A program made the position numbers and the translations under genes. 62,944 nucleotides of DNA, taken from NCBI RefSeq assembly GCF_004944975.1, contig NZ_SPQG01000007.1:107320-170263 (forward strand), in the 5' to 3' direction. Of this stretch, positions 991 to 22,500 are shown one piece after another; the stretch's first letter is position 1, and every line of letters begins with the position of its first letter. Below the pieces are notes generated by a model. It did not search any database. It was given only the letters and a program-made list of their open reading frames with translations, and was not told the DNA's origin. Origin of the DNA: Halorhabdus amylolytica. GTDB taxonomy: Archaea > Halobacteriota > Halobacteria > Halobacteriales > Haloarculaceae.

Positions 991-1020
991 TAGCAAACCG
1001 ACCAAATCGAATCACAACCG

Positions 1021-4533: not shown

Positions 4534-4622
4534 GTGACGTCGACGGGCATCAGGCCCCACATTTCGGGGACGACACCGCGTTCGTCTACGCAGAAAGACT
4601 TAATGACATAGAGTGACAAAAG

Positions 4623-5123: not shown

Positions 5124-5128
5124 CGTCG

Positions 5129-5470
5129 ATGGCGTATCGTCACGGGGACGTGGTGTCGATTCCGGATCCCCACGACAGACGACCGTCGCGACCGGCGGTC
5201 ATCATCTCCGATTCGGACTGTCCCGATCACGGGACTTGCTATACAGTAGCTGCGATCACTGGAAGTGAGCGATTTGGGGAGACACGGTACGCAGTCGAAG
5301 TGGAGACTGACGAACCGGTCGAAGGGACGCTGCTCAAGCGCTCGTTCGTCGAACCGTGGACGACCGAACGGATCGCGCACGACGACATTCGAGACGTCCA
5401 TGCGCGATTCGGGGCTGAAACGATGAAGCGTATCGCAAAGGCATACGCCGCCATGGTCCTACGGGGATGA
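5129..5470 (+). CDS. PemK/MazF-like endoribonuclease toxin
   Basis: About 113 residues from the ATG at 5129; a GTG at 5120 would overlap the upstream gene by four bases. The N-terminus YRHGDVVSIPDPHDRRPSRPAVIIS is the MazF/PemK beta-barrel start, with the Arg-Pro-Ala-Val-Ile signature. It is followed by an LLKRSFVEPW strand where the family has its substrate-binding residues. MazF toxins cut single-stranded RNA at short motifs. With the preceding winged-helix gene it forms a type II toxin-antitoxin pair with an unusual HTH antitoxin. Confidence 0.75.
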   Translation: MAYRHGDVVSIPDPHDRRPSRPAVIISDSDCPDHGTCYTVAAITGSERFGETRYAVEVETDEPVEGTLLKRSFVEPWTTERIAHDDIRDVHARFGAETMKRIAKAYAAMVLRG

Positions 5471-5489
5471 ACGACCACTGTCCATCGCT

Positions 5490-5543
5490 ACGGATGCAAA
5501 ACAAATCCCTGGGACGTTGGTCTCGGCGAGAATTTGCATCCGT
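5490..5543. terminator. 11-bp perfect inverted repeat between convergent genes
   Basis: ACGGATGCAAA at 5490-5500 is perfectly complementary to TTTGCATCCGT at 5533-5543. It sits in the 75-base gap between the toxin stop and the convergent DUF433 stop, so a bidirectional terminator is likely. Its TACGGAT start resembles the ends of the 80-bp elements, but there are no TCA flanks. Confidence 0.4.
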
Positions 5544-5545
5544 CC

Positions 5546-5848
5546 TCAGTCGGCTTCTTCGACGGATTCAGTCCCGTTCGCGACGAGCGTCCGGATCCGG
5601 CGTTCTCCCTCCTGACGTGCCGACTCGTCGGCGCGCTCCCGATCCGCGAGTTCCTCACGGTGGTCGTCGTAATAGTACGCCAGGGCGGTGCACAACGCTG
5701 CCATCGAGATCTCGTACTCGCCCGCGACGACGTGTGGGTCCTCGTCCTAGTCGATCACCCGTCGCTTACAATCCAAGACCGTGATTCGCGTCCCCGCTAC
5801 CCGTGGCGAGCCATCGTGGATCTCGTCGTCGCGAATGATCGTCGTCAT
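5546..5848 (-). pseudogene. DUF433 antitoxin-like gene with an internal stop
   Basis: From the ATG ending at 5848 the frame reads MTTIIRDDEIHDGSPRVAGT and ITVLDCKRRVID, the DUF433 start. It then meets a TAG near 5748-5750 and continues in the same frame (DEDPHVVAGEYEIS, then YYYDDHREELADRE) to a TGA at 5546-5548. The full 100-codon length fits the family, so one nonsense codon seems to be the only lesion. DUF433 proteins usually accompany a PIN-like or Mut7-C toxin (family knowledge). No such partner remains here. Confidence 0.7.
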
Positions 5849-5931
5849 GGCTAATACTATAGTTTCAGAACTGTATAACGGTGAGGCGACCGAACCGGTA
5901 TGTTCTTTCTGCCGGGTATGGATGTCCACGT

Positions 5932-6386
5932 ATGCGCATCCTGCGGGTCGCCCAGAAGGTCTACCCCGAGGTCCCTGGCGGCGGGACCTACCACGTCCAC
6001 GCGATGTGTCGCGATCAGGCCGCGATGGGTCACGACGTCACGCTGCTGACGATCCGTCACGACGAGTCGTTGCCACACGTCGAGGAGCGTGTGCGGGGTA
6101 CACGGTGGTGCGCTACGATCCCGCGTTTTCCGCGCTGGGCAACAACATCAGTCCCGGGCTGGCGCGGTATCTCTTCTCGGCGGAAGATTTCGACGTGGTG
6201 CATGGCCACTCGCACCTGTACTTCTCGACGAATCTGGCCGCGTTCCGGTGTCGACTGGGGGACGTGTCGCTGGCGCTGACGAACCACGGGCTGTATTCCC
6301 AGAGTGCCCCCGAGTGGGTGTTCGACCTGTACCTGCGGAGCGTGGGTCGGTGGAAGTTTGAGCAAGCTGACGTGGTGGCGTGCTAG
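5932..6386 (+). pseudogene. Truncated, frameshifted family 4 glycosyltransferase
   Basis: The start MRILRVAQKVYPEVPGGGTY is the N-terminus of a GT4 sugar transferase. Near 6090-6100 the reading shifts to another frame, which continues as YTVVRYDPAFSALGNN, DVVHGHSHLYFSTNLAAF and FEQADVVAC before a TAG. Only the N-terminal Rossmann half is present; the nucleotide-sugar-binding half with the EX7E motif is missing. It is probably a remnant at the edge of the glycan locus. Confidence 0.75.
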
Positions 6387-6510
6387 TATTTATTGTGTAT
6401 TTGACCATTATGATTGATGTCGTTGGTTCGTGCTGTGGGCTCTAGGAGCGCTTCGCCCAGTATGGAGGTTGCATGAGATCTTGTCATGCGGATTCGAAGT
6501 GATTGTGGCC

Positions 6511-6787: not shown

Positions 6788-7903
6788 TCAAAGAATTGTT
6801 TGGTAGACTTCCTGATATTCTGACACCATTCGTTCCTCTGTAAACTGTGTGGCGGCTACCGCCTGTGCTCGTCGGCTCATTTCGTGTCGTCGCTGGGGGT
6901 CTTCGATCAGAGTCTCGACGCGATCGACAAACAGTCCATCGGTCGTGTTTGGAGGGACCACAAAGCCGGTTTCGCCGTCGTCAATTGCTTCAGCAACGCC
7001 ACCAACGTCGCTGGCGACTAGGGGAACACCGGCATGCATACATTCTAGGACAGTGATTGGAAATCCTTCGAACCGTGACGGCAACAAGAAGACATCGAAA
7101 TCAGGGAGGAATTCCAGTGCGTCCTCGACGAATCCCGGCATGTACGTGTTCTTCATGTTATGATCGTCGATATATCGGTGGCACCGTTCCTCGAGCGGTC
7201 CACTCCCGATCAACACTGTCGCGACATCGTGGCCCTGCTCTCGGAGATGCTTTGCGGTTTCGAGGTTCGCGAGTGGATTCTTCTGAGGGGCAATCCGTCC
7301 GATAGATCCGATGATTGGCGTGTTTCGATCGATTCTGTACTCGTCATGGAGGGTCTTTCGATCGGACGGGAGTTCCAACGGTGGAATCCCGTTATGAATG
7401 ATTGTCCCCTCGTTCGCAGAGAGAATTTCGTGGCGTTGCCCCTGTTGGCGGTCGTTACGGGAAACGCAAACGATCTCTTCAGTACGTCGTTCGAGAAACC
7501 GCTCGCCACGGATGACGAGCGGGCGGAGCACACTGTATTCCGTGTTGTAGAATCCCCAGCCGTGAACGGTGAAGACGCTCGGGACACCAGCGCGCGATGC
7601 GGCAATGCGGGCGAGTGCTCCCGCCTTGGTGCTATGGCTGTGAACGAGATCGAAGTCGCCCTCGTCGATCAACTGGCGCAGGTCACGGTACGCGAGCACG
7701 TCCTTGGGATGAGGAGTACTCTGTAGGTGGGGTTGGACGTGTACCGACACACCTTCGTTTTCGAGCCGGTCAATCAGTCGTCCACCCGGGCCGCAAGCCA
7801 CGGCAGCAACGTCGTCGATCTGGGTTGCCAACGATTCGACGACACGGGGTGCTCCACCCCACTCTGACCGGGTGATTACCTGCAGGATACGTTGTGAATT
7901 CAT
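6788..7903 (-). CDS. Family 4 glycosyltransferase
   Basis: A 371-residue GT-B fold enzyme. The N-terminal half has the SEWGGAPR glycine turn and the LVHSHSTKAGALARI acceptor-side segment. The C-terminal half has GSIGRIAPQKN (start of the donor domain) and the EGFPITVLE segment carrying the EX7E donor-binding pattern, then GGVAEAI. It transfers a sugar from an activated donor to a growing lipid-linked glycan, probably at the inner face of the membrane. It stands alone at the left end of the glycan locus. The sugar is unknown. Confidence 0.85.
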   Translation of the reverse strand: MNSQRILQVITRSEWGGAPRVVESLATQIDDVAAVACGPGGRLIDRLENEGVSVHVQPHLQSTPHPKDVLAYRDLRQLIDEGDFDLVHSHSTKAGALARIAASRAGVPSVFTVHGWGFYNTEYSVLRPLVIRGERFLERRTEEIVCVSRNDRQQGQRHEILSANEGTIIHNGIPPLELPSDRKTLHDEYRIDRNTPIIGSIGRIAPQKNPLANLETAKHLREQGHDVATVLIGSGPLEERCHRYIDDHNMKNTYMPGFVEDALEFLPDFDVFLLPSRFEGFPITVLECMHAGVPLVASDVGGVAEAIDDGETGFVVPPNTTDGLFVDRVETLIEDPQRRHEMSRRAQAVAATQFTEERMVSEYQEVYQTIL

Positions 7904-8759
7904 TTGATACCCTTTTATTTCAGTAAATCAACTACAATCTCCGATGAGCCGGACGATTTTCTTCACTTCCTCCTGTTTAGTCATGATTAAACTGATGGCA
8001 CCCGATTCGTCCACAGCTATAGAGACGCTTCGGTTTGTGTGGTGGGTTGCACGACTCAGATCCGGAAAACTGAATCCCTTGTATAGTTTGTCTCCCAGAA
8101 TACCAAGTGCCCCGCTGTGGCACAATAATCTGACAGATCTGGGTGGATAACCCAATCATTAGTGTTATTGTCGACTTTTGATATTCACACATCCATGGAT
8201 GCCAATATTCTCCGGGATTGCTTAGGACTGATGATGTTTGTGGTTGGTCCATGTAGTGCGATTTTATGTTGAGGATATTGGTACTGAAATCGTGGCGTGA
8301 AATGACTCATACGGATTAGTGTAGATTATTTCCGGATGACGTCGACCCGGGGGTCGACGGATACCGGTAAATCACTACACTAATCCGTATCACTTGATCT
8401 CTGGTGGAGTTCTCATAAGCCTATTCCAACTCATTATGTTAACGAGTCATATCCCTTCTAAAATCGCCGGGTTCGGATTGATTGACTATCGATCGTGAAA
8501 GAGACTTATGAGTGGGGGGACCTCTCATGAAACACACTTAGCGCCGTGTTTACATAACACACTATTGATTATCCGCCCTCTTGCAGTTCTGGTCTATACA
8601 AGTGAGGCTCGAATCATACCACAAAAACGTTCAGATTAGAACTCGCCGGCTGCCGTCCAAATGCAGTTATAATAACTCCTTGACAAGAACGTCGCCGATT
8701 CAAGTATATCTACAGTGGGGTAAATCAAGTCAACAGTCCCGCAACTATCTAGTATATAA
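7904..8759. other. AT-rich gap with no convincing gene
   Basis: The 856 bases between two leftward genes hold the 80-bp element at 8310-8389. A weak leftward open frame at 7928-8155 ends in VDESGAISLIMTKQEEVKK; it resembles no family I can name and may be a decayed gene end. No RNA gene is visible. Confidence 0.4.
8310..8389. mobile_element. 80-bp inverted-repeat (MITE-like) element, copy 2
   Basis: The ends TACGGATTAGTGTAG and CTACACTAATCCGTA are exact complements, flanked by TCA at 8307-8309 and 8390-8392. The centre carries a second palindrome, GTCGACCCGGGGGTCGAC. It is nearly identical to the copy at 42887-42966 and lies in intergenic DNA. Confidence 0.85.
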
Positions 8760-10115
8760 CTATTCTAAGTACCCGAGTTCTTTAAGATGGTCCTCAATCA
8801 TTTCCTCGTCTTCGACGGCTGTCTGTCCGTGAGCACGCCGGTGTTGCATCTGATCTAAATGTTCGTCAAGTGTCGAACTCAATAACTCGTAGATTTCTCG
8901 TTCATCGTCAATCCGATTTTGCTCTTCGCTTTCTTCAGGATTTTCAGAAATATCAAAAAGATATTGGTCACCCTGATGACGGAGTAACTTCCATCCGTCA
9001 GTACGTCGCACACCAGCATGTTCACGATCTAGCTCTGCACCAACATCGATAAACCCGTATTCCCGATCGGGGGATTGCCATTCTTCTTCCCTGATGAGTG
9101 GATCACCATCCCACTGTGATGGAACATCAACATCGAGAAGAGAAAGTATCGTTGGCGGGAGATCAACTAAGCAAACTTGATTTTCAACTCTCGTCGCCGC
9201 CTGCTTCGGAAGCGATATCGCGAGGGGGACACGGATAACCTCTTCCCAGAATTCTTGTGGGTGACCGCCACGTCCGTGTTCACCATGCATGTCTCCGTGA
9301 TCTGCAGTAAATACGATAATGGTTTCGTTAAGTTCGTTGCGGTCCGAGAGAGTATTGAATAGCCGCTTTATCTGGTTATCAAGATATCGACACTCAGCCT
9401 TATAGAGTTGTTTCTGGAGCTTCCAATCTTTATCATTCATCTCTTCAGGGTGATGTACGGCAGTTCTGGCGAGCTTTTGAGATTGAACCCTATCTATTGG
9501 CTCGTCCAAAAATAATCTCTGATACTCGTCTGGTGCTTCGTAGGGAGCATGGACATCCATCGGGTGCAACCAAGAAAACCACTTCTCTTGTTCACGAGAC
9601 CAGTCAAGTAGATCATCTACAAGGACCTCTCCCCGCACAAAGCGACTCTCTTTATCACTTGCAGTAACGAAGGCGTTATCTATGAGATGGTACACGCGGA
9701 GAAGCGACTGGAATAGTATCCCCTCGTGGTCAAGATTTTCTCTGATAAATTGCTTGAATGTTTTCCAAGACGTGGTAGCACTGGCATCACGCATATCGTC
9801 GATTCCTCGGTCGTAGTTGTAGGCACTCGACGCGAACCGATTATCTGTGAAACCTCCCGTCGAATACCCCTCTTCGGACACTACCTCAGCCAAAGTCGGA
9901 TGCGGATCTTCTTCTCCTGGAATACCGAATCCTTCGGTAGAACCTGCGTACCGACTTGCGAGTAGTGCTGGAAACGACCATGGTGTTCCAGGACCATTAG
10001 CGATGCATTCGGTAAATTCGACCGCGTCGTCAAAGAACGAACGAGTGAAGGGCATGATGTCCTCCCTAACGTGGTCAGCTCGAAGAGCATCCACCGTAAT
10101 ATAGAGGATGTTCAT
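8760..10115 (-). CDS. Sulfatase-like alkaline-phosphatase-superfamily protein
   Basis: A 451-residue protein. The metal-binding start is ITVDALRADHV and the second metal site is FTADHGDMHGEHGRGGHP. The region that holds the Cys/Ser-x-Pro-x-Arg formylglycine motif of true sulfatases reads TPWSFPALLASRY. It has no such motif and offers a Thr or Ser nucleophile instead. It may therefore be a phosphodiesterase or a phosphoglycerol-type transferase rather than a sulfatase (inference). It lies in the glycan locus and shares a C-terminal LxxLGY tail with the protein at 13060. There is no signal peptide, so it is probably cytosolic or peripheral. Confidence 0.75.
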   Translation of the reverse strand: MNILYITVDALRADHVREDIMPFTRSFFDDAVEFTECIANGPGTPWSFPALLASRYAGSTEGFGIPGEEDPHPTLAEVVSEEGYSTGGFTDNRFASSAYNYDRGIDDMRDASATTSWKTFKQFIRENLDHEGILFQSLLRVYHLIDNAFVTASDKESRFVRGEVLVDDLLDWSREQEKWFSWLHPMDVHAPYEAPDEYQRLFLDEPIDRVQSQKLARTAVHHPEEMNDKDWKLQKQLYKAECRYLDNQIKRLFNTLSDRNELNETIIVFTADHGDMHGEHGRGGHPQEFWEEVIRVPLAISLPKQAATRVENQVCLVDLPPTILSLLDVDVPSQWDGDPLIREEEWQSPDREYGFIDVGAELDREHAGVRRTDGWKLLRHQGDQYLFDISENPEESEEQNRIDDEREIYELLSSTLDEHLDQMQHRRAHGQTAVEDEEMIEDHLKELGYLE

Positions 10116-10222
10116 ATCTGGTCCAATTCGACAATCCCGATAAATGGACTGGTTTAGTAATAAGCAGATATTCGTCCACTGATATTCTCACCCACGTTTC
10201 GGCAGAAACCGTTTAATGCTTG

Positions 10223-10228
10223 TTTATA
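10223..10228 (+). promoter_or_regulatory. TATA box of the glycosyltransferase-flippase operon
   Basis: TTTATA is centred about 25 bases before the ATG at 10251, so the transcript would begin at or just before the start codon (leaderless). Confidence 0.5.
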
Positions 10229-10250
10229 GAATGGGTGGATAGAATATCGA

Positions 10251-11339
10251 ATGGACGTCAGAATTGCACACTCAGAATCGCTTGACCGCGGTGGTGCTCT
10301 CACTGTGGCAGAAGAAGCTGCACGCACTTTCGATTGCCCGTTACATGTTGGCTTCCACGTTCCGGGGATCGTGGCCGACGATATCAATGCGATTGAACTG
10401 TTTGATGCACCGATCGCCCGTTGGCTCAGTCACCATTCGTCGGCCATTCGCGATGCATATTTCTCTTTGGCTTGGCAGCACGTCCCTGAGTTGCATGACG
10501 CTGACGTAGTAATCGAAAGTGGCAATAATCCTGGCTGGTACGTCCCCCGCGATACACAGGCTATCGTACGGTACGTCCACAGCACGCCCTATGCCGCCTA
10601 TCACCGGTTTCACGAGTCTGGGCAGACCCTGGCAGGGAAACTTTATGGTACCGTTCTCCGGACGTTATATGCTCAGACAGTTCCATACCCAGATGTTTGG
10701 GTTGCCAATAGTGAACTCGTTGCCCGTCGAATACGGCGGTATTGGGGCGTTCAAGACGTTGAAATCGTTTATCCGCCTATTGACGTCAACTCATACGGCC
10801 CTCGTGAATCCGCTGACTATTTTTTCACTTTTTCACATCTGCGCGCAGAGAAACGCATTGATGAGATCATTCGTGCCTTTACCAGTCTTGACGAGCGTCT
10901 TGTTATTGGGGGGGATGGACCTGAGCGAGACCGGCTTGAACGGATGGCTCCGCCCAACGTGGAGTTTGTCGGTTACCTTGATGAGGACGAAAAGCGTCGC
11001 CGACTCGGGGAGGCACAGGCGTTTTTGTTCAACGCCCGTGCAGAGGACTTCGGTATCGTGCCTGTTGAGGCCTTTGCCTCTGGGACGCCAGTAATCGGTG
11101 TGGCTGAAGGATATACGCAGCATCAGATTGAGGATGGGAAAAACGGGATTCTTTATGCACGAGGCGTTGAAAACATCATCTCTGCTATACGATCATTTCA
11201 ACAGGACGGAGTTGATTGGGATGACGAGTATCTCCAGAATATAGCCCAACAATATGACATCGATCAATTTCGCACTCAGATGCGAAGTGTAGTAGAGAAA
11301 GCTCACGAACAGACGAAAATTAATCCTGAGTATGAATAA
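10251..11339 (+). CDS. Family 4 glycosyltransferase
   Basis: A 362-residue GT-B enzyme that lacks the usual Gly-rich first loop but has HSESLDRGGA at the N-terminus, FTFSHLRAEKRID at the start of the donor domain, VIGGDGPERDRLE, and ARAEDFGIVPVEAFASGTP carrying the EX7E-type donor site. It begins directly downstream of a good TATA box. The flippase gene starts 11 bases after its stop, so the two form one operon. It probably adds one sugar of the surface glycan. Confidence 0.85.
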   Translation: MDVRIAHSESLDRGGALTVAEEAARTFDCPLHVGFHVPGIVADDINAIELFDAPIARWLSHHSSAIRDAYFSLAWQHVPELHDADVVIESGNNPGWYVPRDTQAIVRYVHSTPYAAYHRFHESGQTLAGKLYGTVLRTLYAQTVPYPDVWVANSELVARRIRRYWGVQDVEIVYPPIDVNSYGPRESADYFFTFSHLRAEKRIDEIIRAFTSLDERLVIGGDGPERDRLERMAPPNVEFVGYLDEDEKRRRLGEAQAFLFNARAEDFGIVPVEAFASGTPVIGVAEGYTQHQIEDGKNGILYARGVENIISAIRSFQQDGVDWDDEYLQNIAQQYDIDQFRTQMRSVVEKAHEQTKINPEYE

Positions 11340-11350
11340 ATATAGAATAT

Positions 11351-12814
11351 ATGAAATCTACTAAATCATTAAACCTATCAAAAGAAACAATAATCTCTGT
11401 CGGTGCTAGAATCACGCTTTTACTCTCTGGATTTATTGGTATCGTATATTTCGCTAGGACTGTCCCGCCTGAGAATCTCGGAACTTATTTTTTCATAATC
11501 GCATTTTCTCAAATCATTCAACAAGTTATCGAAGGACTGGGTAAGGCAATTAAAAAAAGAATAAGCGAGGAGGGGGTTGATCCTGAAGGCTATTTTGGCC
11601 TCGGACTATTCTCTAACCTGATATTTGTACTATTCCTTTTGGCTTTGGTTAGTGTGGCGTATTTTGTTGGATTAGAGCAATCTATCGGTATTCCATTTGA
11701 ATATATTTACTGGATGGTCGGCATAATCGCAACGTCGGGGTTGTTTGTTCTAACTAGTCAAGTGTACGCCGGCATCGGTTATCCTGGTCTTTCGATGTGG
11801 ATGAACACAATTCGAAACATTGGAAGAGTCACGATCCAAATCGTTTTAGTAGCGAATGGGTTCGGCATTGCCGGTCTATTTGCAGGGTTCGTCATCTCTA
11901 ATGTTATAATGGCTGTCACCGTATCTATCATATCAGGTATATGGCCACACCTACCATCGAAACGAACAATCAAAAGAACGGCCTCATTTGCGAGATGGAG
12001 TATCCCAAATGTCCTTTTTCAGCGATTTTATTCCAGAGCCGACGTTTTGTTGATTGGTATTTTGGTGGGAGGGACAGCTGTGAGTTATTATGAGGTTGCG
12101 CTTAAATTGACAACGCCAGCAATATTCATCCCAGTCAGTCTGGGTAATGTTCTTTTAGTGAAAACGAGCGGACTTTCGTCAATAAATGAAGATGCCAGAT
12201 CTGGGTTACGACGTTCAATTGGATATGCAGGCCTCTTATCCATCCCAATATTTTTTGGCTCTCTTGTAGTTGGCCAGGAACTTCTTGTTGTTGCTTACGG
12301 TCAGAACTACGCAAGTGCTTTGCCTGTTCTCATTGGTTTGGGGTTGTTTCAGGTAGTAAATACGTATCGTATCCCGTTTGCTAGATTTTTTGATGGTATA
12401 GACAAACCCCGATTGAATACTGGGGTAAATCTTGTAACCATATCAATCCACTTATTGCTTGCTTTTTATTTAGGTACGAGATACGCACTATTGGGAATCG
12501 TTGCTGCAACGATCGTAGCTGAGGTAATTCGAATAACACTATATCTATACTTCTGTAATAAAATATATAATGATATATTTATTGACAAGATGGTTGCTCA
12601 TCAGATCATCTCTGGAACGGTAATGTCGGGTGTAGTTTATATCCTTGCAAAACTCAATTATTTAGAACCGAATCTATTCGCCCTGTTGAGCCTTATCGCT
12701 ATCGGGGGGGCCATATATGTCACGGTCCTTTCTACTATAAACGAAAATATCGAAGAAAATGCCAGAGAAGTCGTGAGTTTCCTCCGAGGGGCGTTCGTAT
12801 CTGTCTTTAACTAA
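11351..12814 (+). CDS. Wzx/AglR-like polysaccharide flippase
   Basis: A 487-residue protein with 12-14 predicted membrane segments. It has the MOP/MATE-like start (GARITLLLSGFIGIVYFART, then PPENLGTYFF) typical of polysaccharide exporters. It would move lipid-linked oligosaccharide across the membrane to the side where the oligosaccharyltransferase or ligase acts. It is co-transcribed with the preceding glycosyltransferase. Its low GC content compared with the flanking housekeeping genes suggests acquisition with the locus. Confidence 0.85.
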   Translation: MKSTKSLNLSKETIISVGARITLLLSGFIGIVYFARTVPPENLGTYFFIIAFSQIIQQVIEGLGKAIKKRISEEGVDPEGYFGLGLFSNLIFVLFLLALVSVAYFVGLEQSIGIPFEYIYWMVGIIATSGLFVLTSQVYAGIGYPGLSMWMNTIRNIGRVTIQIVLVANGFGIAGLFAGFVISNVIMAVTVSIISGIWPHLPSKRTIKRTASFARWSIPNVLFQRFYSRADVLLIGILVGGTAVSYYEVALKLTTPAIFIPVSLGNVLLVKTSGLSSINEDARSGLRRSIGYAGLLSIPIFFGSLVVGQELLVVAYGQNYASALPVLIGLGLFQVVNTYRIPFARFFDGIDKPRLNTGVNLVTISIHLLLAFYLGTRYALLGIVAATIVAEVIRITLYLYFCNKIYNDIFIDKMVAHQIISGTVMSGVVYILAKLNYLEPNLFALLSLIAIGGAIYVTVLSTINENIEENAREVVSFLRGAFVSVFN

Positions 12815-13059
12815 GCCGAATCTGTTTTCATTCTAATGTGCCCACGTATATTGTTTGCGATATTATTATATTTACCATGTGTGTTCTAGAGAGATAAACT
12901 ACTCTTCGTTTCGTGTTCAGCGCCATTTGTCGTTGCTAACAATAGGAATGAGAGATCATCATACATCTAATCACGGCATCAGACTGTGTCTATGTCATTC
13001 ATTCGATCAAATAATCAAACGATAAATCTTTTTTCTTTGTCTCACATTATCCTCAGTAA

Positions 13060-14001
13060 ATGTACTCATTAGCTCAAATCCGACGTGGATTGTCTAATCC
13101 TGCATTGTTTTTACGGGAAGCAAATCGTCTCTTCCATCGTCGATTATACTTCCATACTTACAACCGAAGCGGTATTGATATATTTGATGAAGATTGGGAC
13201 AACCTCATCTTGTTAGACGGGTGCAGGTATGATATGTTGGAAGAAAGATATAAAAAACTTCCAGGAGAGCTTGGGTATAGATACTCACGCGGGTCGACTA
13301 CGGTTGAGTTTCTTCGGGGGAATATGAGTAACCGAAAGTTGACAGATACAGTATATATAACCGCAAACCCTCAATTGTATATGAATAAAGAAAATATTAA
13401 CGTAGAATTCCATCGTGTTATTGATGTTTGGAAAGAAGATGGCTGGGATGAAGAAGTTGGCACCGTCTTCCCGGAAACTGTAGCAGACTGGGCACTGGAC
13501 GCGTATGAACGATTTCCTAACAAGCGATTATTGATACATTTCATTCAACCCCATTACCCATTTATTGAGTCATCAATGAAAGAAGATAAAGGCCACCTGG
13601 ATAAGGCGCATCTCGATGATGCCGATCAAGGACTTTCCCTTTGGTCAAAGAAGATGCTCGGAAACACAGAAATTACTAAAGAAGAAATTTGGGAAGCTTA
13701 TACAGAAAATTTAGAACGTGCCTTCCCCTCGGTTAAAAAATTGATGAGTGAACTTAATGGACGTACTGTTGTCACGTCTGATCATGGGAATATGGTTGGG
13801 GAACCCTCGTACCCGATCCCGATCCGTGACTGGGGCCACCCTGCAGGGATCTACACTGAAAAGCTTACTAAAGTCCCGTGGCATATTTATGAGAAGAATC
13901 CGCGTCGAGAGATAATCACTGGCGAATCGAAACGAGAAGAACAAAAGGTACCTGAAGAGACGGTCGAGAATCGGTTGGAGGATTTGGGATACGTAAGTTA
14001 A
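13060..14001 (+). CDS. Alkaline-phosphatase-fold hydrolase or transferase
   Basis: A 313-residue protein. LILLDGCRYDML is the first metal motif, with Asp. GSTTVEFLRGN holds the likely Ser/Thr nucleophile. HFIQPHYPF and VVTSDHGNMVGE give further metal ligands. The Cys motif of formylglycine sulfatases is absent. Its C-terminus (VENRLEDLGYVS) resembles that of the protein at 8760. It probably modifies or trims glycans or transfers a phosphate-linked group; the substrate is unknown. Confidence 0.75.
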   Translation: MYSLAQIRRGLSNPALFLREANRLFHRRLYFHTYNRSGIDIFDEDWDNLILLDGCRYDMLEERYKKLPGELGYRYSRGSTTVEFLRGNMSNRKLTDTVYITANPQLYMNKENINVEFHRVIDVWKEDGWDEEVGTVFPETVADWALDAYERFPNKRLLIHFIQPHYPFIESSMKEDKGHLDKAHLDDADQGLSLWSKKMLGNTEITKEEIWEAYTENLERAFPSVKKLMSELNGRTVVTSDHGNMVGEPSYPIPIRDWGHPAGIYTEKLTKVPWHIYEKNPRREIITGESKREEQKVPEETVENRLEDLGYVS

Positions 14002-14139
14002 TTTTAAATATAAATCACCATTTAAATATTCTATACCTAACGAATGGGTTTTGGGATTCTAAACTTCATTCAAAATCAAATAAATCCTCTGCCATGACTA
14101 TCTGAAGCTATTTTCTATGAGATTCCGGTCGTGGGAGTT

Positions 14140-14470
14140 GGGATGACCCCCCAGATCGTGACAAGAGAGGGCAGTCAGATATCCATCCATCAGTATTGAC
14201 GAGAAACTCTGTCTTTGCGACATCGTTTTTCTCAGTGAATCGATGCAGGAACGCTGTCCTCAGAAATCGGAGATTCTTGTTGTGCAAACGAATATTTTGC
14301 TCTCGTTAACGCCGGGGAGTCTGTCCTGCGGCGGTTGAATATATCTTTTTCCAACAGCAGTTTCGACTCCGTATCGAAGCGGCATAGAGCCACTTCTTTT
14401 CGCCGTCTCCCTTGATCTGTTTCTCATCGACCGCGACTCACCGATAGCGCTACTGTCGATGGGTCGTTGG
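14140..14470 (-). pseudogene. Decayed IS6-like DDE transposase
   Basis: Reading the minus strand in shifting frames gives VDEKQIKGDGEKKWLYAA, then HRFTEKNDVAKTEFLVNTDG. These are the catalytic-core landmarks of haloarchaeal IS6-type transposases: the first Asp before the Lys-rich turn and the second Asp in FLVNTDG. The frame is broken at least twice, and the N- and C-terminal parts cannot be followed. The rest of the gap 14002-14792 shows no gene. The element probably helped shuffle the glycan locus. Confidence 0.55.
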
Positions 14471-14792
14471 ATCATAGCAAGTTCTTTTTCCTATTACCAG
14501 ACTGCCTGATGATAGCAATCGAATATTTAGTCAGTCAAAGAGAGCCTCAACATCACCCAATGACCGACCCTTTGAGAAAGTCGAAACTCGAAACAGCGCA
14601 CGGGAGTCAGCGTTCACTCGTTCTTCCAACTATCTTGATTTTCCACATCTAACAGTTCCCTGAAATGGTCCATGAGTTTCATGGACAGAACTCATCACGA
14701 CCTCCTCGCTTCTCAATCCCTCAACTAGACAGTTCCATATTCTGATGTAGATAAAGCAAACAATCTTTGGGGGCCCTGAACTTTGAACGCAT

Positions 14793-16211
14793 ATGCCCAC
14801 GAATCCGTCTCGAATTGAACGTGCCTTACTTCTTTTTGCTACCGCAGCCAGCCCACTGTTTTTCGTCCAGCTTGCAGGCAAAAATTTAGCTCCGTGGACA
14901 GTATTTTTCCCGATTGTTGTGTTGTTGTACGCAGTTCGGACTAATACTATTATAGTTGGTCCGACAACTCGATATCTGCTTGGACTTCTCATATTTTGTC
15001 TTGCAATTACATTATCAACGGTTAACAGCCCATTCCCGTTGGAATCTCTACTTGATAGTGGTCAATATTACATTATTTTACTCATGGTTATGCCTGCCTG
15101 CTTACTTGGGTTTCGCGATCTCACCACTAGATGGTGGGTTGTGCTTATCCTTGTTCTTTCACTGAATAGTATTAGCGTGATCGGCGAGGTCGTTGCGATC
15201 ATTAACGGCTCACTTGTAGTTGAGCTTGCCTATGGTAACCACAATTTAATCCCTATGTTGACAGGTGCTGCAGCGATATTGAACTTCGGACTTGTATTTT
15301 CAAATAATTTTAATGATGAGTGTCGTAAACTTCTAGCAATGTTGTCTACCGTTCATCTATTTACTGTGTTTCTCGGACCTTCAAATGGCGCGAAAGTCAT
15401 GCTCGTCATTGCCGCGTGGCTTTTCGGCTGGTGGATGGTTGAACGGTCACGCTATCCAAGTAGATTCTACGGTCTTGTTTCCGTGGTGGCCGGATGTATC
15501 GGCCTTTACGGAATCTATGCTTTCTGGGAGAAGATCTATGAAGCTGCTTTCTACCATCGGATACCAATGTATTATGAAGCGCTAATCGATGGCATCCGGA
15601 CATTCCCTTTGGGCGGCGGCATGTCTTCGGCGAACGTATATCTTGCCGATCTGCCCATCGGCATTTCTCGAGAAGTTCACAATATTTGGCTATCCCACTG
15701 GCTCGAATTTGGTGTTCTTGGAGTCGCTGGCTCTGTTCTTCTATTCCTTGACTGGCCTATTCTCTTTACCCGTGTCATTCACAGTCGATCCGATGATCTT
15801 GCTGGTTGGGAGTTTGGGACCGCCGTGCTGTTCGGCGCTTGGTTCGTACAGGTCCAGTTTCAGCCTGCGCCAGTTACGCGATTCTGGTGGATTGTGTTCG
15901 CGCTTTCGTGGACGGTTTTGCTTGATCACCACCCAGACAGGTTGGCGCTTTCGTCACAAGTTACGCTTGATGGGTCGTCAGTACCACTCTCGACCGTTTG
16001 GCAGTCTTCGCGAGTTACTAGCGCTTGGGTGACTCTGAAGGAAACCATGTGGGCCGTTTCACAAAGGGTTTCCTCAGTTACTGTCTGTAGGGAGGACGAA
16101 CCCATCACGCTGGACCAGATAGGGAAGGCGTTTACAACGCCTTGGCGACATTCGTTACTCCGAGATTTAGTACGGCTACTATTGTCGGACAGTGGTTCAA
16201 ATACAAAATAG
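14793..16211 (+). CDS. O-antigen ligase/polymerase-like membrane protein
   Basis: A 472-residue protein with about 11-12 hydrophobic segments. A large extracytoplasmic loop ends in EVHNIWLSHWLEFGVLG, the pattern of the WaaL/Wzy (PF04932-like) family, where the His is functionally important. Preceding segments include PFPLESLLD and a Gly-rich FPLGGGMSS. In bacteria these proteins polymerise or ligate undecaprenol-linked glycans; here the carrier is more likely dolichol (inference). The C-terminal ~75 residues after the last membrane segment are soluble and not recognised. Confidence 0.75.
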   Translation: MPTNPSRIERALLLFATAASPLFFVQLAGKNLAPWTVFFPIVVLLYAVRTNTIIVGPTTRYLLGLLIFCLAITLSTVNSPFPLESLLDSGQYYIILLMVMPACLLGFRDLTTRWWVVLILVLSLNSISVIGEVVAIINGSLVVELAYGNHNLIPMLTGAAAILNFGLVFSNNFNDECRKLLAMLSTVHLFTVFLGPSNGAKVMLVIAAWLFGWWMVERSRYPSRFYGLVSVVAGCIGLYGIYAFWEKIYEAAFYHRIPMYYEALIDGIRTFPLGGGMSSANVYLADLPIGISREVHNIWLSHWLEFGVLGVAGSVLLFLDWPILFTRVIHSRSDDLAGWEFGTAVLFGAWFVQVQFQPAPVTRFWWIVFALSWTVLLDHHPDRLALSSQVTLDGSSVPLSTVWQSSRVTSAWVTLKETMWAVSQRVSSVTVCREDEPITLDQIGKAFTTPWRHSLLRDLVRLLLSDSGSNTK

Positions 16212-16386
16212 TATTATTATATAGTAATTGAATATATGTACACATTTGCCTTTACTACTGCGACTGGAATCCGGACTGCATAGGATCGTATATAATCATT
16301 TTTATGGCTCTTTTGGACCTTATCTTGTAATCATCTATATTGTATGTAGATCAATGAATGGTGGATGCTTCTTATTTTTGAAATCA

Positions 16387-18072
16387 CTACGCACAGCGAT
16401 TATCAACCTCGTACACATGGATATTTGGTTCTTGGGTATAGATCAGTGATAGTTCAGACCCCTTAATTTCTCCTCGGACAGTTGATGTTCCTCCAGAGAG
16501 TGGTACTGATTCATTACTGGAGATAGTCCGACCAATAGCTAAGGCATCAAAGGTGACCTTACCATTTTTCTCACGGACGGAGAATTGTTGACCAATTTCC
16601 CCATAGTATGCACCTTGTAACGATATACCGTGTTTTGTCAACACATGTTGCGTCTCTAGTGCATGTGCTAATCCAGCGATACCGCCATCTCGTGTTGGTG
16701 CCGAGACCTCAATCCAAGCAGAATCACAACCAGACTCGTTTATTTTGTCTGCAACTTGTTCTCCATTGTAGACATCTATTGCCTGGCCACTGTCTACCTG
16801 AACCCAAGCAATACCTGATGTAATTAAAGAAATCATAATCAGTACTGAGACCAATTCTACTTTGATATCTGATATAGATTCTTTGTGAATGAAAGTCCAC
16901 GCCCCGAGTATACAAAGAGTGCTGAGGAGGATCAATGCGCGGGGTGTTACTCGAAATGTGGAAAGTATCGGAAGGCGGTAAAGCGGTTGAAAACTTATTG
17001 CTAGTAGAATACTGCCAATTGTGGCAGTACTCCAAGCGATCCACCATTTCCTGTTGTTTTCTTTATAATAAATATTGTATAAAAATCCAAAGACTGCTAA
17101 TCCCACAAGCGGGGCACCAATAACTGCATAAGACTCGCGACGCATAGTCCATTGAATAGCTGGTGTCGATGACAACTCGATAGTGAACCCGATGAGATTT
17201 GGCAGGATTTTCCCCAGAGAAACACCACTGCCAACGGGGGGTCGAGAGATATCACGAATTATAACAGGTAATATAGATAATGCCAATTTCGGAAGTGATA
17301 GAAGGCCTCCAATTAAAAGACCCATGATGTACCTGTTATTCCAGAGTGTTAATGCAAAAATGCCGGTTAACAAGCCGAAATAGAAAAACCAGTAACCACC
17401 GCCAGTCAAAAGCAAAACTGAAAGGGAAACGCCAGCGATCGCTCCGCGGAACATAGTTTGCTGATTTAACCGGTTTGGAGTCAGTTGAAAGAGTAACAAA
17501 AGAACCCAAGGGTACGCAAGAATCTTCTGATAGTGGCCTTGAAATGCCGCAATCGGCATTATAGAAGCAATAGCAAATCCTGCAGCCAACGTCATATCAA
17601 CGTCTTTTCGAGCGTAATAATATGTGACCGCCGGAGCGACGGCCATATGGCCTGCAAGGACAGCCTTCAAACTGCTTTTCAAAGGTAACGCTGGAATGTA
17701 TACCGGCCACCAACCCGGGTAAAACCCCTTCCAAAGTGGATTTACGAATTGGTACATTCCACCGTACCAGAGGTCTGTATAGATTGGTAATGCACCATTT
17801 GCTATACTGTGGCGTGCATGAAGAACTGGTAGGAGGTTCGATATTCCATCTGCGCCGTACGGAATGCCCGGTGAGAAAAAATGACTAGCTGATAGAAAAA
17901 CTGGGATGAGCATTATGAAAAATAGAACAATATAATCCTCTTGAGTAAAGAAACAAATCTCTTTCAACCTATTGTTCCGGTATCTTTTGAAGACCTCATT
18001 TAACTTGGATATAAATGCACTAAACAAGGTGTATAGTCGTTCTTGTGGTTGAGTGTAAAGGTTTTGATCCAT
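16387..18072 (-). CDS. Multi-spanning membrane protein, GT-C or PTPS-related type
   Basis: A 561-residue protein with about 11 hydrophobic segments after a soluble start of roughly 45 residues. The first outside loop reads PYGADGISNLLP, an acidic motif in the place where GT-C sugar transferases and the archaeal 'PTPS-related' membrane family have theirs. GHYQKILAYPW follows in a later loop. A hydrophilic tail of about 130 residues ends the protein. It may use a lipid-phosphate sugar. It is AT-rich and transcribed alone. Confidence 0.55.
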   Translation of the reverse strand: MDQNLYTQPQERLYTLFSAFISKLNEVFKRYRNNRLKEICFFTQEDYIVLFFIMLIPVFLSASHFFSPGIPYGADGISNLLPVLHARHSIANGALPIYTDLWYGGMYQFVNPLWKGFYPGWWPVYIPALPLKSSLKAVLAGHMAVAPAVTYYYARKDVDMTLAAGFAIASIMPIAAFQGHYQKILAYPWVLLLLFQLTPNRLNQQTMFRGAIAGVSLSVLLLTGGGYWFFYFGLLTGIFALTLWNNRYIMGLLIGGLLSLPKLALSILPVIIRDISRPPVGSGVSLGKILPNLIGFTIELSSTPAIQWTMRRESYAVIGAPLVGLAVFGFLYNIYYKENNRKWWIAWSTATIGSILLAISFQPLYRLPILSTFRVTPRALILLSTLCILGAWTFIHKESISDIKVELVSVLIMISLITSGIAWVQVDSGQAIDVYNGEQVADKINESGCDSAWIEVSAPTRDGGIAGLAHALETQHVLTKHGISLQGAYYGEIGQQFSVREKNGKVTFDALAIGRTISSNESVPLSGGTSTVRGEIKGSELSLIYTQEPNIHVYEVDNRCA

Positions 18073-18343
18073 CCTAGTGTATTATCCTTGATAATATTCT
18101 GTGAAAGAACCTTCTACTGTCAATTCAAATGGGGATATATAGATTATTCACTGCTAGAGATCTCTCATCGTAGTGAGCCCGTCTACGAGAGGACATTTCT
18201 ATTCACGATTCCCGCCAACAGCCGGCACGTCCACTCACAAATGATTTGGTGGCATTAATTCAGGTCTTTCAAGCAATATCTTGTTTTTTCACTCTAATCT
18301 GAACGCTATCGCTTACTGAGTAAAACGTCATGACGAGAATTCG

Positions 18344-19447
18344 TCACTCACGACCTGCTATATCACAATATAAGTCTGCGTATTCCTTTGCCGATCGCGT
18401 TATAGAATACGTATCCTCAATTCGTTTTCGCGCTCTCTCACCGAGCTCAGAACGGAGGTCCGGGTTTTCGATCAACCGTTCTAAGGCATCTGCCAGTTCA
18501 TTTTCGTCTGTGGCATCAACAAGAATCCCCGCGTCACCGACTACTTCCTGAAGAACCGGGATATCGTTACAAACAACTGGTGTTTCGGCAGCCATCGCTT
18601 CCGCGTTTGCCATACCAAAGCCTTCGTAGTGAGACGGAAATGCAAAAATATCGATCGCATCATAAAAACTAAATACGTCTTTTTGGCTAGGAAACCAGCC
18701 AAGAAAATGAATGTTATTTGTCAACCCGTGGCTACGTACTTTCTCTTCGAGTAGTTCCCGCTGTGGGCCTTCGCCTGTAAAGACTAAATGGACACTGGAA
18801 TATTTTGATTGAATACACGAAAATGCATCAATGAGCGTGGCAAGATTTTTTTGGGCAGAAAGACGTCCTCCAGCTCCAATGATGGTACCTTCTGGTAATT
18901 TCGGGGCTGATCCTTCTCGGCGACAGGTATCGATGCGAGCAATATTCGGCCCGTATGGGATGACAATCTGATTCGTATCCGCAAGCTGTAACAGACGCTG
19001 TTCCCAGGTCGAAAATGAGTCGGCAGTGGCTTGTGAATTGCTGACGACTACTGACCGGAACGCATTGGTTATCCCATTGACCACCTTTTTAATTTTCCCA
19101 TGGTGGGTATGCGAATTGTGTTCTGTCGTTACAACAGGGATGCCGAGACTTCGAGCCATTCCCGTCGCAATAGTCCCAATTGCTATTGGATGAACGTGGA
19201 GAATATCGGGACGTTTCTCGGAGAGATACTGCCAAAGTTTTCGATATCCGTCTAGATCGAAACGTGATTTCGCACCTAAATCTGTAACATCTAATCCATA
19301 TGGCTTTCCATTAACTTCTTTCCAAACAACAATATTGATTTCTACTCGCTCGTCTTCTGAGTTTGCAACCGTTTCAAGTGGCGTGTTCCCCTCACGGGCA
19401 CCGTTAAGTAGCACAGCCACTTCAACTGGATCATTCATCTGTATCAA
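18344..19447 (-). CDS. Family 4 glycosyltransferase
   Basis: A 367-residue GT-B enzyme. The N-terminal domain has VAVLLNGAREGN and DILHVHPIAIGTIAT. The donor domain begins at IIGAGGRLSAQKNLATLIDA and holds HYEGFGMANAEAMA, which carries the EX7E motif. It is transcribed in the same direction as the oligosaccharyltransferase upstream, with a gap of 56 bases, and may form an operon with it. Confidence 0.85.
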   Translation of the reverse strand: MIQMNDPVEVAVLLNGAREGNTPLETVANSEDERVEINIVVWKEVNGKPYGLDVTDLGAKSRFDLDGYRKLWQYLSEKRPDILHVHPIAIGTIATGMARSLGIPVVTTEHNSHTHHGKIKKVVNGITNAFRSVVVSNSQATADSFSTWEQRLLQLADTNQIVIPYGPNIARIDTCRREGSAPKLPEGTIIGAGGRLSAQKNLATLIDAFSCIQSKYSSVHLVFTGEGPQRELLEEKVRSHGLTNNIHFLGWFPSQKDVFSFYDAIDIFAFPSHYEGFGMANAEAMAAETPVVCNDIPVLQEVVGDAGILVDATDENELADALERLIENPDLRSELGERARKRIEDTYSITRSAKEYADLYCDIAGRE

Positions 19448-19503
19448 CTATTTCCAAGATGTAGGGGTACCAATGGTGCATGTGCTTACTCATCAAGCTG
19501 AAC

Positions 19504-22500
19504 TCATCTCTTCTTTTCTTGGTAGAGGGTTTGAATCTCTTCTGTTGTCCAGGCATCCTCGTCGATGCGAACTTCGTCAATATGTCCAAACCAACTATTC
19601 GCACCACCCATCCGTCCGATCGTCACTGGCGAATCGTTTTGTTTTAATCTGCCTGTCACGATTTTCCTCCCAACCAAGTTTCCATCCACGTACGCGTGCA
19701 ATTGATTTCCATCGTATACCAAGCCAACGAAATGCCACTCTTGTGATGTTATATCCGTAGTAAGTCGGTAAATTGAATCTCCGGCCACGATCGAAAATCG
19801 AAACGGTCCTTCCCGATCATTCCGTAGAACAAACGTATGCTCCTGTGGTCCGGTTTTGGGTGACGGCCCTTTCCCGATCACGACGGGCCAGTTCTTCGAC
19901 GAATCAGTCAATGTGATCCACGCAGCAACCGTAAATCCGTTTCTGAAGGTCAGGTCGTCAGTATCTGTACGTATTCCTCCAGAGCCTCGGAATCGGAGCG
20001 CTTTTTGTTCGATGCCTTCGCTCCATTCAGCACTATAGATCTCCCCGTGGTGACCACCCTCTACGTCGAATATGTAGTCTCCGCGTCCGGAATTCATCGG
20101 CCAGTATGCGCTGTCTCCTTTGTTTGAAACGAAATTACCATCCGAAATATCTTCTGTGGATACTTCTTTAGGACCGTCTGGACCAATATATTCTCCCGGG
20201 TAAGCTACTCTTGTAGCATACCATTCTGTCTCTGTCGGTGTTGGTTCTTTTTGGTACTCAAAAGATGCATTATTGATCTCCACCTGCTTTCGAATAGTCA
20301 TCGACTCACGTGATTCAGCTTTGCCTGTTACGATGGCCCCCTTGACGGGGACGTAGATCCATTTGTTCTTATTTTCTGTTGTCCAGATTGCTTGGTAGTG
20401 TCCTGTTCGACTTCCCCCCTGGTTATACAGCTGATTAAATAGAGACTCGGATAGGCCTCCACTTATATTGTCTGATGAAACAACAATAAATCCGTATTTG
20501 TTGTCTTTGATCAATTTTTGATACCAAAACTCGTCTCGGTTAGATCTGAGAAAATCAGTAAAATGCTGTTGAGAATATCGATAACTCCCTGATTCACCAT
20601 TCACGAACCAGTTGTATACCCGATTTCGTCCCCATTCGCTGAACACGTAATTCTCGGGATATTCCCAACCCCGTTCCTCAGAGTATTCCCGCATGAATTT
20701 CGTGGCCTCGTACGTCGACTCGTCGATCAGCAGTTGGGAGTGCTTGATTGGCGTGTTGATGATTCCAAGCGAACCGACGCCCAATCCGAACCCCATCAAA
20801 GACAACGCCCGTCGTCGTTCGGGCCATTCTAGATCGTCAGTTTCGTCCGCGTCTTCGCTCGTGGAAATGCCATGTTTTTCGGATTCGTTTGACCCGCCGC
20901 TGAACGGCTGTGGATACATAGTCAGATCAACCCACGCGGCGACGTGCACGAACCCGAGCCCCCCGAACAATGCTGCGAACAGCGCTAGCTGTCCAGCGAA
21001 GCGGATCTGGATCATTGATAGTAAAAGGAACCACCATCCGTAGATGCTGACGACCAGCCACTCCGGTTCGTTTCCACTGTAGCACTGCCAGGTCGCCCAT
21101 CCCATGTATGGCAGTGCTAGGAAGAGCGCGAACCCGAACAGGAAGATTGGACCGATGATAGCCCCGAGATCCCCCGACACAATCGACATCGTTTCGGCGA
21201 CTCCGCCTTTCGAAATCAAGAAATCGATGCCACGCCCAAGTTCGCTGACGAAGTCCGGAAACACTAACCACAACACAGCAAATCCGCTGGGAAACGTGAG
21301 TACTTCTATACCCATCAGCGGCCGCGCCGAGACTTCGAACTGCCTCGCCGCTTCCCCCAATCCGACGATCACGACAGCCTCGACCAACAATAGCAGCGGC
21401 GCGAAGGCGACGACTCGTGTATGCCAGCCCCAGCTCACGTGTGTTCCGAGCACCACCAGCGTAGCCAGCCCCAACCCGCCGACGAACACGGCGCCTTCAT
21501 GAACGGGTGATCTACTAGCACGAACCCACGACGGTACCGCCAGCATCACGAATATTCCCAGCGGTACGAGCAATAGCGGCCCGGCCTCCCAAGCCAGCGT
21601 CTGGCCCGCCACACCAACCCCAAGCGCGACGCCCCATGCCCACGTCCGCCAATCTCGTTCTTCACGATCGACCACAGACACCACGGCTAGTGTCGTCAAC
21701 GCCAGCCAGGGATAGTCGAAGGCGTGGTGGTCGGCAAACCCGAGCCCGGTTCGGAAGGCGTGGCCGGGCATGATCGCCAGCAGCGCCACGGCGGCGATCC
21801 CGACACGGCGGTCGTCGGTCAACCTTACCGATAGCACGTACACCAGCAAAGCGGTCACGAGCGCCGAGACGACTGGGAACCACGCCAACACGCCACCGAC
21901 GGCCGACGTACCTCCGAGCAACGTCGACACCCACGACAACGTCGCCACAATAAGTGGCTCGCCGTGGCTCACCCCACTAGGCAACGACGCAAACACCGAG
22001 AAATCCAGCGGTCCGGCACTCGCCTCGACGATCTGATGCACCAAATACCGGTAGTAGTACGGATCGTTCCCCGAGAGGACGACATCCTCGCCGCGGAACA
22101 CCGCCGGCCAGGGCAACACCCGAAAGAGCACCACCAGCGCGAGCGCCCCAACAAGCCCCAGCGTCGCCACCGGCCGCTCGACGCGCAGGTCCGGCATCGA
22201 AATGTCCTCGAAGATACTTCCTGCCGAACCGGTGGTGTCACGTTCCCTGCCTTCGTCAGCCTCTTGCTCCACACCCAGCGCACGCCGCACAGCCGCACGA
22301 TCCGCCAGCGCGTACTCCCCCTCGCGCTTCTCGACGACACTACGCGACACCAACTCCCCGAACGTTCCCGAATCGAAGGGCACGTCATCAAAGGTCCAAG
22401 TCTCCTCCGCAGCGTCCACGTCGAGAAGTTCTTTTAGTCCATCTTCGAGATCCGGCTTCTCCGCGAGGAGTTCCGCAGTCGTCGCCTCCACGTCGGTCAT
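19504..22500 (-). CDS. AglB-like oligosaccharyltransferase with a C-terminal LamG-like domain
   Basis: A 998-residue STT3/AglB paralogue; the ATG ending at 22500 is preferred to one 12 codons upstream. An acidic cytosolic start is followed by about 12-13 membrane segments. The first acidic motif is GNDPYYYRYL, the second GFADHHAFDYPW. Where the family has WWDYG, I read VFSEWGRNRVYNWF, so the usual motif is absent. The last ~210 residues form a concanavalin/LamG-like sandwich (GFTVAAWITL, then WHFVGLVYDGNQLHAYVDG, then IGRMGGANSWFGHIDEVRI). Canonical AglB transfers a dolichol-linked glycan to Asn in S-layer and archaellin proteins. This version may be specialised in target or glycan choice. 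Confidence 0.8.
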   Translation of the reverse strand: MTDVEATTAELLAEKPDLEDGLKELLDVDAAEETWTFDDVPFDSGTFGELVSRSVVEKREGEYALADRAAVRRALGVEQEADEGRERDTTGSAGSIFEDISMPDLRVERPVATLGLVGALALVVLFRVLPWPAVFRGEDVVLSGNDPYYYRYLVHQIVEASAGPLDFSVFASLPSGVSHGEPLIVATLSWVSTLLGGTSAVGGVLAWFPVVSALVTALLVYVLSVRLTDDRRVGIAAVALLAIMPGHAFRTGLGFADHHAFDYPWLALTTLAVVSVVDREERDWRTWAWGVALGVGVAGQTLAWEAGPLLLVPLGIFVMLAVPSWVRASRSPVHEGAVFVGGLGLATLVVLGTHVSWGWHTRVVAFAPLLLLVEAVVIVGLGEAARQFEVSARPLMGIEVLTFPSGFAVLWLVFPDFVSELGRGIDFLISKGGVAETMSIVSGDLGAIIGPIFLFGFALFLALPYMGWATWQCYSGNEPEWLVVSIYGWWFLLLSMIQIRFAGQLALFAALFGGLGFVHVAAWVDLTMYPQPFSGGSNESEKHGISTSEDADETDDLEWPERRRALSLMGFGLGVGSLGIINTPIKHSQLLIDESTYEATKFMREYSEERGWEYPENYVFSEWGRNRVYNWFVNGESGSYRYSQQHFTDFLRSNRDEFWYQKLIKDNKYGFIVVSSDNISGGLSESLFNQLYNQGGSRTGHYQAIWTTENKNKWIYVPVKGAIVTGKAESRESMTIRKQVEINNASFEYQKEPTPTETEWYATRVAYPGEYIGPDGPKEVSTEDISDGNFVSNKGDSAYWPMNSGRGDYIFDVEGGHHGEIYSAEWSEGIEQKALRFRGSGGIRTDTDDLTFRNGFTVAAWITLTDSSKNWPVVIGKGPSPKTGPQEHTFVLRNDREGPFRFSIVAGDSIYRLTTDITSQEWHFVGLVYDGNQLHAYVDGNLVGRKIVTGRLKQNDSPVTIGRMGGANSWFGHIDEVRIDEDAWTTEEIQTLYQEKKR

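Follow-up and report, generated by a model that had tools for sequence, protein, structure and literature searches.

The bacterial Wzx/Wzy pathway of O-antigen and capsule synthesis uses a phosphoglycosyltransferase (PGT), glycosyltransferases, a flippase of the MOP superfamily, Wzy and UppP, and is encoded in an AT-rich, exchangeable cassette. Campylobacter PglB, an oligosaccharyltransferase (OST) of STT3 fold, transfers Wzy-made polymers en bloc when it is combined with O-antigen donors in glycoengineering. The same kinds of parts (PGT, glycosyltransferases, MOP flippase, a candidate Wzy-like protein and UppP), together with an AT-rich cassette, are found in a 62,944-nucleotide stretch of DNA of the haloarchaeon Halorhabdus amylolytica (contig NZ_SPQG01000007.1, positions 107,320 to 170,263 of the forward strand; this whole stretch is referred to as the window). 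In contrast with the bacterial pathway, the host is an archaeon, the series ends in an STT3-fold enzyme, here called AglBx, and Wzz is found in 0 of 59 related genomes. The PglB case is bacterial and engineered, and PglB has the WWDYG motif that AglBx lacks. The reading preferred here, at slightly better than even odds (roughly 0.55), is that the window encodes a lipid-diphosphate, Wzx/Wzy-like surface-polysaccharide pathway ending in an OST-like enzyme and not in a WaaL-type ligase.

The canonical haloarchaeal AglB locus, represented by that of the same genome (on a separate contig, C6) and by the agl cluster of Haloferax volcanii, has the same OST fold, the same catalytic acids, GT4-family glycosyltransferases, a MOP flippase and sulfatase-like genes. 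It differs in that its OST keeps WWDYG and that PGT, UppP and (with one exception) Wzy genes are not nearby; in the species studied, the carriers of the canonical pathway are dolichyl monophosphates, according to the available text of PMC5867893 and PMC11239922. The HAH_1661-1667 cluster of Haloarcula hispanica contains glycosyltransferases, a polysaccharide biosynthesis protein and an arylsulfatase-like protein, and a 1.1 MDa acidic exopolysaccharide is no longer made when one or other of two glycosyltransferases is lost; unlike the AglBx locus, it has no OST named in the available part of the account (PMC5467301). The S-layer of Halobacterium salinarum carries a repeat-unit N-glycan that is made on dolichol pyrophosphate and is bacitracin-sensitive, and whose site Asn tolerates replacement of the sequon Ser, a property termed unexplained in the excerpted source (PMC2952790). 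For Hfx. volcanii, one N-glycan pathway is described for which no OST has been identified, and there is a second N-glycan, built of repeat units, that has no pathway at all (PMC8241124, in the portion available). No account joining a haloarchaeal OST with a PGT was found in the open-licence literature, where AglB and Wzy in haloarchaea are named together in PMC9943897 only. The parts of the system belong to known families; their combination, and an OST clade devoid of WWDYG, appear to be undescribed in that literature.

The AglBx clade and its pocket motif

The aglBx gene lies on the minus strand at 19504-22536 and its product scores 44.1 bits against STT3 (cut-off 24.5). An earlier note on this DNA had counted an AglB paralogue within a glycan locus ending at 19447; the paralogue exists, and lies just past that point. 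Its likely start is the ATG at 22500, the conserved first Met (33 aligned). Numbered from the GTG at 22536, the protein comprises a winged-helix-like domain (residues 13-93), the OST fold (118-804) and a LamG/ConA-like domain (~808-1007). The AlphaFold2 model (pLDDT 87) has A. fulgidus AglB as its best solved match (7e9s_A; Z 36.3, 635 residues, rmsd 3.9, over model residues 118-804), and predicts both the multi-spanning membrane part and the C-terminal globular domain that go with membership of the OST family. In a profile alignment, the NDP, DHH and IAE motifs of the clade fall on D47, D161-H162-H163 and E360 of the A. fulgidus enzyme; N157, D158 and H270 are invariant among AglBx and E448 is kept in at least 90%. 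(In the AglBx of loci L027, L028, L029, L031 and L032, [ED]H[RQ] replaces DHH, and the remaining catalytic set is kept.)

WWDYG, found in 28 of 28 canonical haloarchaeal AglB, is found in none of 74 named and none of 30 further AglBx (the canonical locus of the window's own genome spans L003 and L004 and is entered once in the 28). Its place is taken by W..NR..N in 69 of the 74 and in all 30, in the window as W635-G-R-N-R-V-Y-N642 (20611-20634, minus strand). The named set is that of 76 loci from a one-pattern scan that is not exhaustive, and the motif counts exclude two of these, L086 and L106, whose reading frames are in pieces. According to the part of PMC3703281 available, WWDYG and a residue of the DK/MI motif form the pocket for the sequon Ser/Thr. 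Since WWDYG is absent, AglBx is filed as a superfamily relative and not as an AglB, and attachment at ordinary N-X-S/T sites is not to be assumed.

AglBx is a distinct and widespread haloarchaeal clade. Relatives occur in 32 of the 59 related genomes, and a search of 391 genomes of the order at a stringent profile threshold finds them in 222; in public plasmid records they are annotated as STT3 domain-containing, as LamG-like jellyroll or as hypothetical proteins. The extra N-terminal domain of its members, predicted as helices followed by two strands and winged-helix-like, matches no Pfam family above cut-off. Its assignment to a known family was rejected, the low-E matches in the PDB being only to short stretches in designed repeat proteins and taken as chance. 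LamG-like tails, judged by eye, terminate 10 of the 74 named AglBx; that of the window, which the earlier note did not mention, matches ConA-like domains such as domain 4 of AbnA (Z 22).

Lipid-diphosphate partners and a candidate polymerase

Clustering of the neighbours of AglBx identifies the PGT of family PF02397 as a leading partner. PGT genes are present in 41 of 76 AglBx loci, often a few hundred bases away, and in 0 of 28 canonical loci; measured by distance, 17 of 30 AglBx matches have a PGT no further than 20 kb away, versus 0 of 35 for canonical AglB. AglBx and PGT are present together in 214 of the 391 genomes; 8 have AglBx without PGT, 47 have PGT without AglBx, and 122 lack both (odds ratio 69, Fisher p 5e-51, with no phylogenetic correction). 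The corresponding figures are 28, 4, 6 and 21 for the 59 genomes, and 22, 2, 5 and 13 for 42 genera (p 4e-5), and the association persists both within the window's family and outside it. UppP is found in 27 of 32 AglBx genomes, in 7 of those 27 within 1.5 kb of AglBx, whereas none of 34 canonical AglB has it within 20 kb (these 34 being the places in genomes with UppP plus one more, out of 53). The PF02397 and Wzy_C profiles find no match in the Hfx. volcanii control.

In the window itself, the initiating PGT is WbaP-like (28984-30438, minus strand; PF02397, 202.8 bits) and is followed by the polyprenyl-diphosphatase UppP (BacA; 31100-31912, minus strand; PF02673, 163 bits), so the locus reaches past 6788-19447, the stretch treated in the earlier note. 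The MOP-superfamily, Wzx-like flippase that had been proposed there is borne out (11351-12814, plus strand; PF13440, 54.3 bits, cut-off 23). A DUF4330 protein (32719-34074, minus strand; PF14221, 94 bits) and the 256-residue protein X (31952-32722, minus strand; an overlapping frame without a Pfam match) recur as neighbours, in 16 of 76 AglBx versus 1 of 28 canonical loci and in 12 of 76 versus 0 of 28, respectively, and are candidate accessory factors. Both stand beside UppP in the window; they also adjoin AglBx in L042:8104-9635.

The candidate polymerase is a Wzy/WaaL-like membrane protein (14793-16211, plus strand). Its match to Wzy_C is weak, at 27.9 bits by hmmscan (cut-off 31.7) and 31.5 bits, or 32.8 with neighbours, in the genome search, so that this assignment, also made in the earlier note, straddles the Pfam threshold. 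In an alignment of ten such proteins, HN is kept in eight and His in nine; the AlphaFold2 model is poor (pLDDT 51). Of 21 AglBx cases, 11 have a Pfam Wzy_C match no more than 20 kb away, versus 1 of 33 for canonical AglB. (A purpose-made profile, seeded from AglBx loci, gives a biased search; the Pfam counts are free of this bias.) Flippase, GT4 and sulfatase genes were rejected as evidence of polymerisation: the same genes surround canonical AglB, and a genome-wide PF13440 search finds flippases near OSTs of both kinds. The earlier proposal that polymerisation and an OST are combined here receives support, of a comparative kind, from Wzy_C and from the WbaP-like PGT and UppP, two enzymes required for a lipid-diphosphate (Wzy-type) route, which co-occur and co-locate with AglBx.

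These neighbours also bear on the idea that AglBx is an ordinary second OST, which attaches a short glycan at N-X-S/T and in which the new motif is the equivalent of WWDYG, the Wzy-like protein being unrelated. The OST fold and catalytic residues are retained, as this would require, and canonical AglB also has its sets of GT4, Wzx and sulfatase genes. The idea is nevertheless improbable: canonical loci have PGT in 0 of 28, UppP within 20 kb in 0 of 34 and Wzy_C in 1 of 33, and WWDYG is in every canonical AglB examined and in no AglBx.

The proposed pathway and its acceptor

In the pathway as proposed, the WbaP-like PGT would load a sugar-1-phosphate onto polyprenyl phosphate (its family match and co-occurrence with AglBx are observed). 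GT4 enzymes would assemble a repeat unit, which enzymes of the alkaline-phosphatase fold may trim or modify; the MOP flippase, judging by its family, would export it, and the Wzy-like protein, the weakest of the assignments, would polymerise it. AglBx (of which the fold, residues and linkage are observed) would then move the chain en bloc to an extracellular acceptor, for which a surface protein is the likeliest candidate, perhaps with attachment to an Asn that is not part of an ordinary N-X-S/T sequon, and UppP would recycle the released polyprenyl diphosphate.

A protein acceptor is, we infer, favoured by the OST architecture and by a Haloplanus plasmid on which AglBx is flanked by UppP on one side and, at a distance of 3.6 kb on the other, by a gene annotated as an S-layer glycoprotein. 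(An S-layer gene beside AglBx is unsupported as a rule, having been seen otherwise only at one Salinibaculum locus, L066, and weakly at L144.) On this footing the AglBx system can be thought of as a second haloarchaeal system of protein glycosylation, in which Wzy-type polymers on polyprenyl diphosphate would be transferred to surface proteins by an STT3 clade that lacks WWDYG and follows a different acceptor rule. The system would also be antigenically switchable, since recombination within the transferase gene would swap the acceptor domain and the sugar cassette jointly. This fuller reading is tentative, and is held at rather less than even odds. The attachment of polymer to protein that the earlier note had envisaged survives in it with a changed basis: with WWDYG lost, N-X-S/T is not assumed, and the flippase, GT4 and sulfatase genes by themselves say nothing for polymerisation.

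Several observations weigh against these readings. Kinship has been handled, for the co-occurrence of PGT and UppP, by genus and family splits only; 8 of 222 AglBx genomes have no PGT, and 47 of 391 genomes have PGT and no AglBx. The Wzy assignment in the window sits at the cut-off, no more than 18 of the 32 AglBx genomes have Wzy_C, and 5 of 59 genomes have Wzy_C and no AglBx. Such genomes, with Wzy_C or PGT but no AglBx, imply that polymer synthesis needs no AglBx. The Wzz profile (PF02706), which matched 8 of 14 controls, matched none of the 59 genomes. The S-layer family TIGR04216 shows no systematic proximity to AglBx, and loss of WWDYG could mean that the acceptor is not a protein. Finally, Hbt. 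salinarum has yielded a single OST gene, to go by the excerpted source (PMC2952790), so that its repeat-unit N-glycan, the best known of its kind, is not explained by the AglBx clade.

The main rival is that the locus serves an exopolysaccharide or capsule. AglBx would in that case attach or process the polymer with something other than protein as acceptor, be it a lipid or the polysaccharide under construction, and the loss of WWDYG would then be a loss of peptide recognition. WWDYG is indeed missing clade-wide, the acidic-exopolysaccharide cluster HAH_1661-1667 of Har. hispanica has the same kinds of genes (PMC5467301, in the part available), and a glycosyltransferase in a Har. hispanica cluster with an aglB homologue serves exopolysaccharide and not S-layer glycans, according to the text available of PMC9943897. 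On the other hand, polymer loci without AglBx exist, making AglBx an addition to them; the OST architecture of AglBx is complete, C-terminal domain included; and both the function of the family and the Haloplanus S-layer neighbour favour protein. On balance a capsule locus of this sort is unlikely, although it is the least unlikely of the alternatives.

If transfer to protein is correct, the coexistence of AglBx with canonical AglB in one organism would break the rule, stated in the accessible part of PMC3703281, that an organism has a single type of Ser/Thr pocket throughout its OST paralogues. The clade has properties that would fit chemistry of the Hbt. salinarum type. A polymer, a diphosphate carrier, bacitracin sensitivity and tolerance of sequon-Ser replacement would be common to the two systems, with the difference that the S-layer glycan is known from biochemistry only (as far as the excerpts go). 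AglBx would then offer a genetic handle on how a diphosphate-carried repeat-unit glycan reaches an S-layer Asn with a replaceable Ser, as in Hbt. salinarum (PMC2952790), and on the OST for AglB-independent N-glycans and the source of haloarchaeal repeat-unit N-glycans, gaps that the portion of PMC8241124 available describes for Hfx. volcanii. These gaps are in species other than those tied to the AglBx clade here; for Hbt. salinarum, absence from the 76 named loci says little, as the scan behind them was not exhaustive. It would also suggest how archaea vary their surface sugars, with a bearing on viruses and mating.

A probable exchange within aglBx, and other features of the window

The AT-rich cassette (8000-20582) has a GC content of 0.448, compared with 0.622 over 1-6400, 0.631 over 20583-42999 and 0.645 from 45001 to the end. 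The GC profile, a check that the earlier note had proposed, confirms the drop but places it at ~8.0-20.6 kb, a length of ~12.6 kb and not 16 kb, and places one of its breaks inside the paralogue gene. DNA homology to the congeners G003 and G005 (blastn) begins at the 5' end of aglBx (22541/22542) and stops in both at 20582, inside the gene; the common part (20582-22542, minus strand) is 78.6-78.7% identical. Protein identity to the congeners is 76-82% over the N-terminal domain, membrane part and linker, and falls to 37-40% in the extracellular domain, where G003 and G005 are 69% identical to one another. The LamG part is 26% identical to that of G003 and is absent from G005.

At the homology break, GC content at third codon positions (GC3) drops from 0.74 to 0.38. 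Among 46 aligned AglBx a drop of this size (0.36) is seen only in the window and in L035 of Halosimplex carlsbadense, the median being 0.02, so a GC break inside aglBx was rejected as a general rule. The 3' side of AglBx is also low in GC in G003 and L035, and more mildly so in G005. The gene is thus a mosaic, and its acceptor domain and LamG tail were probably exchanged along with the glycan cassette. In the simplest reading, aglBx borders an exchangeable sugar cassette, and the exchange in this lineage took with it the part of the transferase that lies outside the cell. A native chassis would then consist of the PGT and UppP genes and of the membrane half of AglBx; the sugar-building genes and the extracellular half would make up the AT-rich cassette, swapped with that of a putative donor by recombination within aglBx.

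A further alternative is that the cassette is a recent foreign island, decaying or silent, and aglBx a non-functional chimera. A truncated GT4 gene (5781-6386), long non-coding gaps (7904-8759 and 14002-14792) and a broken AglBx copy in the congener G006 speak for decay. This is nonetheless very improbable, because the recognisable enzymes are near full length against their families and the aglBx frame runs uninterrupted for 1010 codons and has conserved residues both before and after the break. (In G006, the broken AglBx lacks part of the membrane region, L116:11535-14300, and a second, LamG-type AglBx is present elsewhere.)

Three GT4 glycosyltransferases are full length, as the earlier note had it: at 6788-7903 (minus strand, at the cassette edge with a GC content of 0.563; PF00534 128 bits, PF13439 92 bits), at 10251-11339 (plus strand; PF00534 85 bits) and at 18344-19447 (minus strand; PF00534 135 bits). 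The truncated one (plus strand, 201 residues) has the N-terminal Glyco_transf_4 part only, with PF13439 at residues 123-201. A 561-residue protein (16387-18072, minus strand) that had been thought GT-C-like has no match among Pfam families at E values up to 5, nor among NCBIfam families, and that assignment is not confirmed. Additions to the earlier picture, besides the LamG tail, the GC break inside aglBx and the PGT and UppP genes 6-9 kb further on, are two alkaline-phosphatase-like proteins: a sulfatase/alkaline-phosphatase-superfamily enzyme (8760-10115, minus strand; PF00884, 119.5 bits) and a small protein of 313 residues (13060-14001, plus strand) with weak matches to PglZ (E 0.0016) and Phosphodiest (E 0.05). 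Both have relatives, those of the small protein by iterated search, in AglBx and canonical AglB loci alike. An NDP-sugar epimerase/dehydratase (27967-28965, plus strand; PF01370, 217.7 bits) lies, like the PGT, UppP, protein X and DUF4330 genes, in high-GC DNA beyond the cassette.

A near-palindromic element of ~87 bp with terminal inverted repeats, resembling a miniature inverted-repeat transposable element, occurs at 8305-8392 and 42884-42971 of the window and at L003:8735-8823 and L004:17072-17162, that is, at the AglBx region and at the canonical AglB region; the copies are 90-94% alike. At 25483-26790, a TnpB/IS605-type transposase gene (25483-26745) is accompanied by a sense-overlapping transcript of Rfam, sot0042, which lies at the 3' end of the gene. 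A second AT-rich patch (43001-45000, GC content 0.48-0.50) includes a GT2-family glycosyltransferase gene (43381-44562). Upstream of the cassette, at 1021-5784, are RNA-ligase-like, RtcB-like, MarR-like and PemK/MazF-like genes; the best-scoring stretch of the RtcB match is the C-terminal part only of its reading frame.

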